A stretch of DNA of 64,000 nt from Bacillota bacterium (GTDB lineage: Bacteria; Bacillota; Clostridia; Lachnospirales; Lachnospiraceae): positions 1 through 64,000 of the forward strand of contig JAEWYQ010000006.1 of the NCBI GenBank assembly GCA_023395555.1, read 5' to 3'. The translations under genes and the position numbers were made by a program. The notes under the pieces were generated by a model. It was not told the DNA's origin and searched no databases. It saw only the letters and a list, made by a program, of their open reading frames with translations. This document shows, in pieces, positions 19,545 through 21,036 of the stretch (the stretch's first letter is position 1; each line of letters begins with the position of its first letter).

Positions 19545-20621
19545 CTAATCCATATCCATGGTTCGGATGCCTGTTTTTACCCTCTGCCTGCTATCCTTAC
19601 TGCCCGACATCTGCTTGCTCCATTGCTTTTCCCGGATTTTTTCCTTCATCCTCCTCCGATGTTCAAAGCTCACCTGCTCCTTCTGGAGCTTTAACCAGCT
19701 TTCCCAGCGTTTCTGATCCAGGATTCCGTTCTTTAAGGCAAATCTCACGGCACACCCCGGTTCATTCCTATGCTTGCAATCATGAAACCGGCATTTTCTC
19801 ACCGTCTCCTCGATATCTCCGAACATTACCTCCATTCCGGTATCCGCTTCCCACAGAGATAAAGAACGCATACCCGGTGTATCCAGTATTAGCCCTCCCT
19901 CGGGAAGAAGCACTAATTCTCTGTGAGTTGTCGTATGCCTTCCCCTGTCATCCTCCCGGATCTCACCTGTTTTTAAGAGTTCCTCCCCCGCCAGATAATT
20001 GAGAAGTGTCGATTTTCCCACGCCGGAGGATCCCAGCAATGCTACGGTTCTTCCAGATGCAAGATATTTTCTGATTCCATCGATCCCTTCTCCTGTTACG
20101 CAGCTGATAGCATGCACCTCCACACCGGGAGCAGAGGTATGGACAATGGCTGTTTTCTCCTCTGTATCATCGCAGCAGTCCGCCTTAGTCAGTACCACCA
20201 CCGGTGTTGCACCGCTCTCCCAGGCTGTAATCAGATACCGTTCCAGCCTTCGCATGTTAAAATCCCGGTTGAGAGATTGAATCAGAAAAACCGTATCCAC
20301 ATTGGCAGCCACGATTTGCTCCTTTAGTTCAATTCCCGCAGCGGCTCTTGAAAATTTTGTCTTCCTTGTTAATATAAAGCCGATCTGATGCATTCCGGCA
20401 TCTTTGACATATTCCAGGGCGACCCAATCTCCGACAGCCAGAAGCAGAGCTTCTCCCTGCTTATTTACCGGTCTGTTGACGGAGAGCTCTCCCTCCTCCG
20501 TCATTATACGAAGGATCTGGCCGTAGTCGGCAATCACTCTTCCGGGAAACATTCCTGCTGCCGAATTCTCGTTCCATTCCTTTTCAAAAAAATCATTCCA
20601 TCCATAGTCATTTCTATTCAT
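19545..20621 (-). CDS. rsgA: Ribosome small subunit-dependent GTPase RsgA
   Basis: 358-residue circularly permuted GTPase that assists late 30S maturation. An OB-like N-terminal domain precedes the G4 motif LTKAD, the P-loop GSSGVGKSTL (about 197-206) and the G3 motif DTPGM. The zinc-binding motif CRFHDCKHRNEPGC follows near 285-300. A basic extension of about 40 residues after the usual end contains KEKIREKQWSKQ. GGAAGG precedes the ATG by about 9 bases. Its upstream region holds five 13-bp tandem repeats. Confidence 0.95.
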   Translation of the reverse strand: MNRNDYGWNDFFEKEWNENSAAGMFPGRVIADYGQILRIMTEEGELSVNRPVNKQGEALLLAVGDWVALEYVKDAGMHQIGFILTRKTKFSRAAAGIELKEQIVAANVDTVFLIQSLNRDFNMRRLERYLITAWESGATPVVVLTKADCCDDTEEKTAIVHTSAPGVEVHAISCVTGEGIDGIRKYLASGRTVALLGSSGVGKSTLLNYLAGEELLKTGEIREDDRGRHTTTHRELVLLPEGGLILDTPGMRSLSLWEADTGMEVMFGDIEETVRKCRFHDCKHRNEPGCAVRFALKNGILDQKRWESWLKLQKEQVSFEHRRRMKEKIREKQWSKQMSGSKDSRQRVKTGIRTMDMD

Positions 20622-20640
20622 TCATTAATTCCTTCCATAC

Positions 20641-20705
20641 TGTTGTTTGCATCTGTTATTTGCGTTTGTTGTTTCCATCTGTTGCTTTTACCTGTTGCTT
20701 CTCTG
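20641..20705. repeat. Five 13-bp tandem repeats upstream of rsgA
   Basis: Five consecutive units beginning with TGTT: starts at 20641, 20654, 20667, 20680 and 20693. The first three have the form TGTTGTTTGCATC with one to four changes; the last two drift further. They lie just upstream of the rsgA ribosome binding site. Confidence 0.75.
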
Positions 20706-20781
20706 ATATTCTTCTTCGCCTCACCGGATTAAGGGCGGATTACGTGACTCACCTGCAAATCAGCAGTAAAAAAGAGCATAC

Positions 20782-20807
20782 AAAAAGCACGCTGCCAGAG
20801 CGTGCTT
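20782..20807 (-). terminator. Terminator of the 44-codon mini-gene
   Basis: 8-bp stem AGCACGCT/AGCGTGCT with a five-base loop followed by TTTTTG on the minus strand. Confidence 0.85.
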
Positions 20808-20818
20808 ATATTCCATAA

Positions 20819-20953
20819 TTAATCAATACGATTCATACACGATTCGGGTTGCTCGAAGAAGGCGCAAGGCTGGTTACACATGCCGAGAATCACACTGTGT
20901 GCCTTGCCGGTATTCAGTTAGATTGTTGTCACCTCAATATATTTTCTTGCCAT
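20819..20953 (-). pseudogene. 44-codon cysteine-containing mini-gene with an internal TAA
   Basis: ATG at 20953 with AGGAG at 20963-20967. The frame reads MARKYIEVTTI, TAA (20918-20920), then LNTGKAHSVILGM and CNQPCAFFEQPESCMNRID, and ends at TAA 20819-20821. GAA to TAA would be one base change and would give an uninterrupted 44-residue protein ending I-E-L-N-T. The second part has three cysteines (positions 26, 30 and 39). A consensus promoter and a clean terminator frame it exactly. It may be a nonsense-mutated gene, a sequencing error, or a short peptide with a conserved downstream RNA. I do not recognise the family. It lies beside an ABC exporter operon but has its own promoter. Confidence 0.6.
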
Positions 20954-21007
20954 AATCCAACACTCCTTTCTCAATCAAAACCCATCGAATTAATTTAGAC
21001 CAATTAG

Positions 21008-21036
21008 ATTTTATCTCAAATCCCATACATTGTCAA
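21008..21036 (-). promoter_or_regulatory. Consensus promoter of the mini-gene
   Basis: TTGACA (21031-21036 on minus), 17-base spacer, TAAAAT (21008-21013). The predicted transcript from about 21001 to 20782 is about 220 bases. Confidence 0.85.

Follow-up and report, generated by a model that had tools for sequence, protein, structure and literature searches.

Leaders resembling the locus analyzed here have been described for other ribosome factors. In Listeria, the leader rli80 of hflXr comprises a 14-codon leader ORF and a terminator and is induced by lincomycin and erythromycin, according to the passages of PMC6310831 that deal with it. The corresponding passages on the cplR leader of Clostridioides (PMC10201436) do not mention a motif close to the stop codon of its upstream ORF (uORF). 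The word GTPase does not appear in the main text of a survey of attenuators (PMC2965389). Among the matches listed, the open-access literature, which mostly excludes subscription journals, contained no paper on such a leader of an RsgA gene.

The window, i.e. the whole stretch of 64,000 nucleotides that was analyzed, contains on its minus strand a cassette of 255 bases which very probably constitutes the 5′ leader of the downstream gene for an RsgA-like GTPase and likely acts by ribosome-mediated attenuation. Three of the properties expected of an attenuator were found: a short ORF led by a Shine-Dalgarno (SD) sequence, an intrinsic terminator between this ORF and the gene, and a leader that is kept in front of related genes. 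Judging from the sequence, the leader ORF is presumably translated and read-through into the GTPase gene presumably regulated. LepA shows at most 89% identity in a comparison with 378 genomes of one family, and the gene content, which includes sporulation genes, suggests that the DNA comes from a spore-forming member of the gut Clostridia, probably of the Lachnospiraceae. The features of the locus are compiled in Table 1.

The cassette and its 44-codon frame

In a preliminary description of this DNA, a promoter, a ribosome binding site, a 44-codon frame and a terminator had been assigned to the 255 bases. Scans and reading of the ORFs revealed that all of these elements are real and located on the minus strand. 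The promoter should drive the leader and probably also the rsgA-like gene; in the interval from the terminator to that gene, the consensus scan detected no promoter-like site on the minus strand. Since two sites with at least 11 of 12 matching positions occur in the 64 kb, compared to 1.25 expected, the promoter on its own is not unusual. The combination of promoter, SD and start codon was found at two places of the window (five entries), while 20 first-order Markov sequences gave a mean of 0.15 entries. The distance between the terminator and the GTPase gene is approximately 160 bases; an 18-base repeat occurs there four times, with a spacing of 13 bases (20640-20696).

Table 1. Positions of the leader elements and of the presumed target gene in the window
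Feature	Position	Strand	Remarks
Promoter TTGACA-17-TAAAAT, 11/12	21008..21036	-	Consensus scan
Shine-Dalgarno GAAAGGAG of the leader ORF	20963..20970	-	Same or similar element in relatives' leaders
Leader ORF MARKYIEVTTI-TAA, 11 codons + stop	20918..20953	-	ATG at 20953, TAA at 20920-20918; Val at -4, G-ending codon at -5
GAGGTGA in the leader ORF just before the stop	20929..20935	-	Complementary to the 16S anti-SD; duplex -11.3 kcal/mol
TAACTGAATA, stop codon + following box	20911..20920	-	Common to L036, L038 and L046; single occurrence in the window
P2 hairpin, formerly read as coding cysteine part	20864..20907	-	z -2.0
CCTTCTTCG, candidate anti-SD strand for pairing with the leader SD	20854..20862	-	Paired in the fold; without covariation support
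Intrinsic terminator T1 + U tract	20785..20807	-	-12.5 kcal/mol
Second terminator hairpin T2, overlapping T1, own U tract	20775..20793	-	Tail similar to those of L042 and L044
Gene for an RsgA-like GTPase (358 aa), presumably controlled by the leader	19545..20621	-	RsgA_GTPase domain match

As had been claimed, the 44-codon frame contains a single TAA, which is its codon 12, and ends with a TAA at 20819; the three cysteines are also present, all of them in the second part of the frame. By contrast, the conclusion drawn from these data, an interrupted gene for a cysteine peptide, was not supported, as searches with the joined frame gave chance matches only. The joined 44-mer, with X at the stop, retrieved no candidate sharing three 5-residue words from the protein collection and only weak matches from 195, 145 and 80 genomes, the second set of which largely repeats the first. 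Thus, no intact homologue was found by the protein and genome searches, which covered genera other than that of the window and hence not the copies of close relatives. The best match (E 3.8e-4, L015) is antisense inside an unrelated coding region. Nine matches were inspected and taken as chance, the remainder was judged by E-value alone. Three of the better matches also contain a TAA, but those that were read closely run antisense in unrelated genes. Blastn searches of plasmids and phages and a pattern search of viral contigs with the joined frame gave nothing, or matches that were taken as chance. In random sequence of the same composition, the second part (32 codons) would be open in 23% of cases and is therefore not beyond chance. 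Its codon score is the best among the forward frames but weak, as 290 of 5000 shuffles were equally good. Nothing in the genomes searched, all of them outside the genus, indicates that the joined 44-residue peptide forms a family.

Upstream of the cassette, the same strand carries a TetR gene and genes for an ABC ATPase and a permease; the GTPase gene is followed downstream by a chemotaxis receptor gene. A link between the cassette and the exporter beside it was dropped since, by eye, three relatives of the permease lack such a cassette behind them, one of the contigs ending approximately 300 bases past the gene. For the permease itself (22672-21068), neither Pfam nor NCBIfam gave a match at E 0.001. 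Its relatives with 69%, 64% and 49% identity come from MAGs labelled Anaerolineaceae, Coriobacteriia and Clostridiales, a spread that suggests transfer or mixed MAGs.

A second cassette lies at 8323-8019 on the minus strand of the window. It possesses a perfect consensus promoter and an SD, followed by the 12-codon ORF MRRFCLCAVLTY. A stretch of 144 bases (8162-8019, minus strand) matches the 16S rRNA model with 50.9 bits at a cut-off of 50, and an RNHCP-domain gene (7953-7606) follows it. This cassette is possibly an rRNA-mimic leader; no fitting paper on a leader of such kind was found among the matches listed from the open-access literature. It was rejected as a second example of the GTPase leader, as it is of the same style but of different content.

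Leaders of RsgA-like genes and their stop-proximal motif

The product of the window gene matches the RsgA_GTPase domain (2.9e-53, 180.7 bits, cut-off 30) and also RsgA/YjeQ in the PDB. Similar proteins were searched for in 397 genomes, which yielded 50 places in 48 genomes with at most 50% identity. Thirty of these places were read at first, L085 and L086 later. By eye, the leader plan (SD, ORF of 8-16 codons, terminator) was recognized at 20 of the 30 loci, in 19 cases before the rsgA-like gene and in one (L061) before a kinase gene situated upstream of it. Most of these leaders have a hairpin between ORF and terminator. The distance to the gene goes down to tens of bases (L058, L060). Leaders are also present before a second rsgA-like copy in the genome G531 (L085) and before a gene for an APH-family kinase in G705 (L097). 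The counts given below refer to 22 leaders, comprising 18 of the 19 leaders chosen by eye, L085, L097, L108 and the leader of the window. L037, a near copy of L038, was omitted from the counts and from the tree. The leaders were selected by eye, and it is owing to this choice that each of the 22 has an SD, a start and a stop.

Two loci (L057, L059) revealed another short ORF with a hairpin or terminator before the rsgA-like gene, outside the valine rule described below; more than one type of leader may precede these genes. At L035, L036, L038 and L051, a second terminator-like block of the GCGGTATTTTTGCGCCC type, absent from the window, follows the first terminator.

What most of the leader ORFs have in common is the region preceding the stop codon. 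Position -4, counted from the stop, is occupied by valine in 19 of the 22 leaders and, when the window is left out, in 18 of 21. The third base of codon -5 is G in 20 of the 22, and both properties together are shared by 18 of the 21 leaders besides that of the window. L053 and L062 depart from this rule, and L049 has alanine in place of valine. The ORF consists of 10 codons in 13 of the 21 other leaders. The window contains 45 ORFs of 8-14 codons that are preceded by an SD, and MARKYIEVTTI-stop is the only one of them that obeys the rule. Due to the agreement with 18 of 21 leaders and this sole match, the TAA at codon 12 is best read as the genuine stop of an 11-codon leader. The suggestion of a short functional peptide is hence retained in a modified form, inasmuch as the first 11 codons and the stop match a family of leader ORFs before the relatives of the downstream gene.

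The same region could pair with the anti-SD of 16S rRNA. SD-like pairing of -6.8 kcal/mol or lower near the stop was calculated for 19 of the 22 leaders. Ordinary gene ends reached this value in 4 of 31 cases and gene-internal places in 112 of 1245. The duplex of GAGGTGA in the window is the strongest among the 22.

A scan with fixed rules (SD, 8-14 codons, valine at -4, G-ending codon -5, then a terminator) identified 14 of the 30 rsgA-like loci, all of them among the leaders chosen by eye, and none of 10 canonical rsgA loci. It recovers 16 of the 22 leaders including that of the window and misses L042, L047, L049, L052, L053 and L062. On both strands of the window, the MARKYIEVTTI leader is the only match, and 68.6 kb of opposite strands gave none. 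A separate regular expression found 13 of the 30 rsgA-like loci; the value for the canonical loci rests on the fixed-rule scan instead.

"Canonical" is our own label for distant RsgA copies, which occur as a second RsgA with 29-37% identity in 16 of 18 leader-bearing genomes. The approximately 1.4-1.5 kb upstream of 10 of these 16 copies gave no match in the scan. In a tree of 41 proteins, from which L037 and also L035 (broken frame) were omitted, the 10 canonical copies are separated from the branch of the window gene with 100/100 support. Eighteen of the 20 rows labelled as leader-bearing fall into one supported clade of 21. The window GTPase lies outside this main clade, without a clear position among copies that mostly have no leader. 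In the upstream DNA of 11 such copies, several of which are nearest to that of the window on the tree, the scan detected no leader, though with 16 of 22 leaders recovered it could miss some.

An APH-family kinase gene was found in 2 of 68 genomes searched, in both cases with the leader. In G380 (L108, 2725-5019), it stands under the leader and is directly followed by the rsgA-like gene; in G705 (L097/L110), it stands under the same kind of leader. With only 2 of 68 genomes, the kinase was rejected as a general partner.

RNA folding and alternative readings

The folding of the entire cassette RNA is unremarkable (z -1.2). The P2 hairpin after the stop gave z values of -1.65 or lower in 17 of 20 testable leaders, with a mean of -2.9 for all 20; L054 and L062 have no testable P2 segment. 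In the window, P2 begins 11 bases past the leader stop. Of 17 folds, most show the leader SD paired to a CCUUUC strand located further downstream, but this helix failed the covariation test. Outside the invariant core, 58 of 120 pairs were counted, compared to 60.1 in shuffles (20 leaders; L053 and L062 not usable). The SD/anti-SD helix was therefore not accepted as a supported switch and is kept as a possibility.

Many relatives contain the core motif ACCTTTCGTGAATACT, of which the window has no recognizable copy. A pattern search in 41 genomes, 18 of them picked for carrying the leader, gave exact matches in six rsgA-like leaders and one kinase leader, and four matches with one mismatch inside long ORFs on either strand. 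Because a reversed control pattern yielded 9 matches with up to one mismatch compared to 11 for the real motif, only the seven exact ones carry weight. Two matches to the motif in viral contigs lie inside phage genes and were discarded.

When a ribosome block at the start region was simulated by folding, the terminator was clearly lowered in 4 of 17 leaders (L036, L042, L053 and the already low L044) and unchanged or raised in others. The terminator of the window remained unchanged (0.96 before and after). Rfam covariance models gave no match above their cut-offs at the cassette region, three matches being far below theirs; at 13 relative loci with E up to 0.5, the search gave only a weak miRNA match in L046 and, on the opposite strand of L043, a T-box.

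These results bear differently on the possible readings of the cassette. A real 44-codon gene for a small cysteine peptide, recently broken by a nonsense mutation, would agree with the good expression signals and with a joined frame that is open but for one TAA and has the top codon score of the forward frames. It is nevertheless extremely improbable, given that no homologue of the joined peptide was found in the protein collection and the genomes of other genera, that the second part would be open by chance in 23% of cases and has a weak codon score, and that the stop-proximal motif is common to 18 of 21 leaders of other genomes.

Alternatively, the cassette may be an independent gene, for a small RNA or a short peptide, which ends at the terminator and leaves the GTPase gene uncontrolled. 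The strong terminator some 160 bases before that gene, the 13-base repeat array in between and the indifference of the window terminator to simulated ribosome occupancy are in line with such a gene, but a like leader stands before 20 of 30 rsgA-like genes by eye, before 14 of 30 by scan and before none of 10 canonical genes, and it can be as near as tens of bases (L058, L060), making this reading very unlikely. It is conceivable, on the other hand, that the leader acts through RNA alone, as a riboswitch or by protein binding, and that the short ORF is incidental. The P2 hairpin is kept in form, and the conservation of codon -5 at the base level (20 of 22 G-ending) is what an RNA motif would give. 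However, an ORF of 10 codons in 13 of the 21 other leaders and valine at -4 in 18 of 21 speak against it, and we regard control by RNA alone as unlikely.

Proposed mechanism and known parallels

If the cassette is a ribosome-mediated attenuator, transcription would in the ordinary state mostly end at the terminator near 20785. The position of GAGGTGA would allow its binding by a ribosome whose A site holds the stop codon, and from the dimensions of the ribosome, P2 would start near the leading edge of a ribosome paused at the leader stop. Slow progress of a ribosome along the leader ORF, probably close to the stop, might thus alter the downstream folding, and the polymerase would read on into the GTPase gene. 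The action of RsgA on the 30S subunit and, in two genomes, the association with an APH-family kinase suggest that the inducing signal may be translation stress or else a drug or other compound directed at the ribosome. Only tentatively, and with considerable doubt, we propose that these leaders represent an undescribed family of leader-peptide attenuators in which an internal anti-SD contact holds the ribosome at the stop and switches on an RsgA paralogue (with an APH-family kinase in two genomes), which would be a 30S factor induced by stress or drugs and in this respect comparable to HflXr.

If this is true, gut Clostridia hold a second RsgA under translation-coupled control, and a role of RsgA in inducible ribosome protection or repair would be indicated for a protein that, to our knowledge, has otherwise been regarded solely as an assembly factor. 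The leader motif tied to the stop codon would open the sensing step to direct test. Moreover, a misleading peptide gene can be struck from the list.

Compared with known systems, the window protein matches canonical RsgA/YjeQ/CpgA in its GTPase part, but its gene belongs to a separate branch (100/100), and the canonical genes had no scan leader at 10 loci. ARE-ABCF leaders, among them that of cplR in Clostridioides, share with the window a short uORF and a premature terminator upstream of the gene for a ribosome factor; they also have an anti-SD element, of which the window contains a possible counterpart. In the account of cplR given in the relevant part of PMC10201436, however, the uORF reads Met-Arg-Ile, the SD of the gene itself is also sequestered by the terminator, and the target is an ABC-F protein. 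Similarly, the portion of PMC6310831 on rli80 describes a leader that differs from that of the window in its GTPase, which is HflX instead of an RsgA-like protein, in the RLR motif of the hflXr/macrolide leader type, which is absent from MARKYIEVTTI, and in having been shown to be induced by drugs. What both have in common is the arrangement itself, in which a short leader ORF and a premature terminator precede the gene for a ribosome GTPase paralogue, with the ordinary second copy encoded elsewhere.
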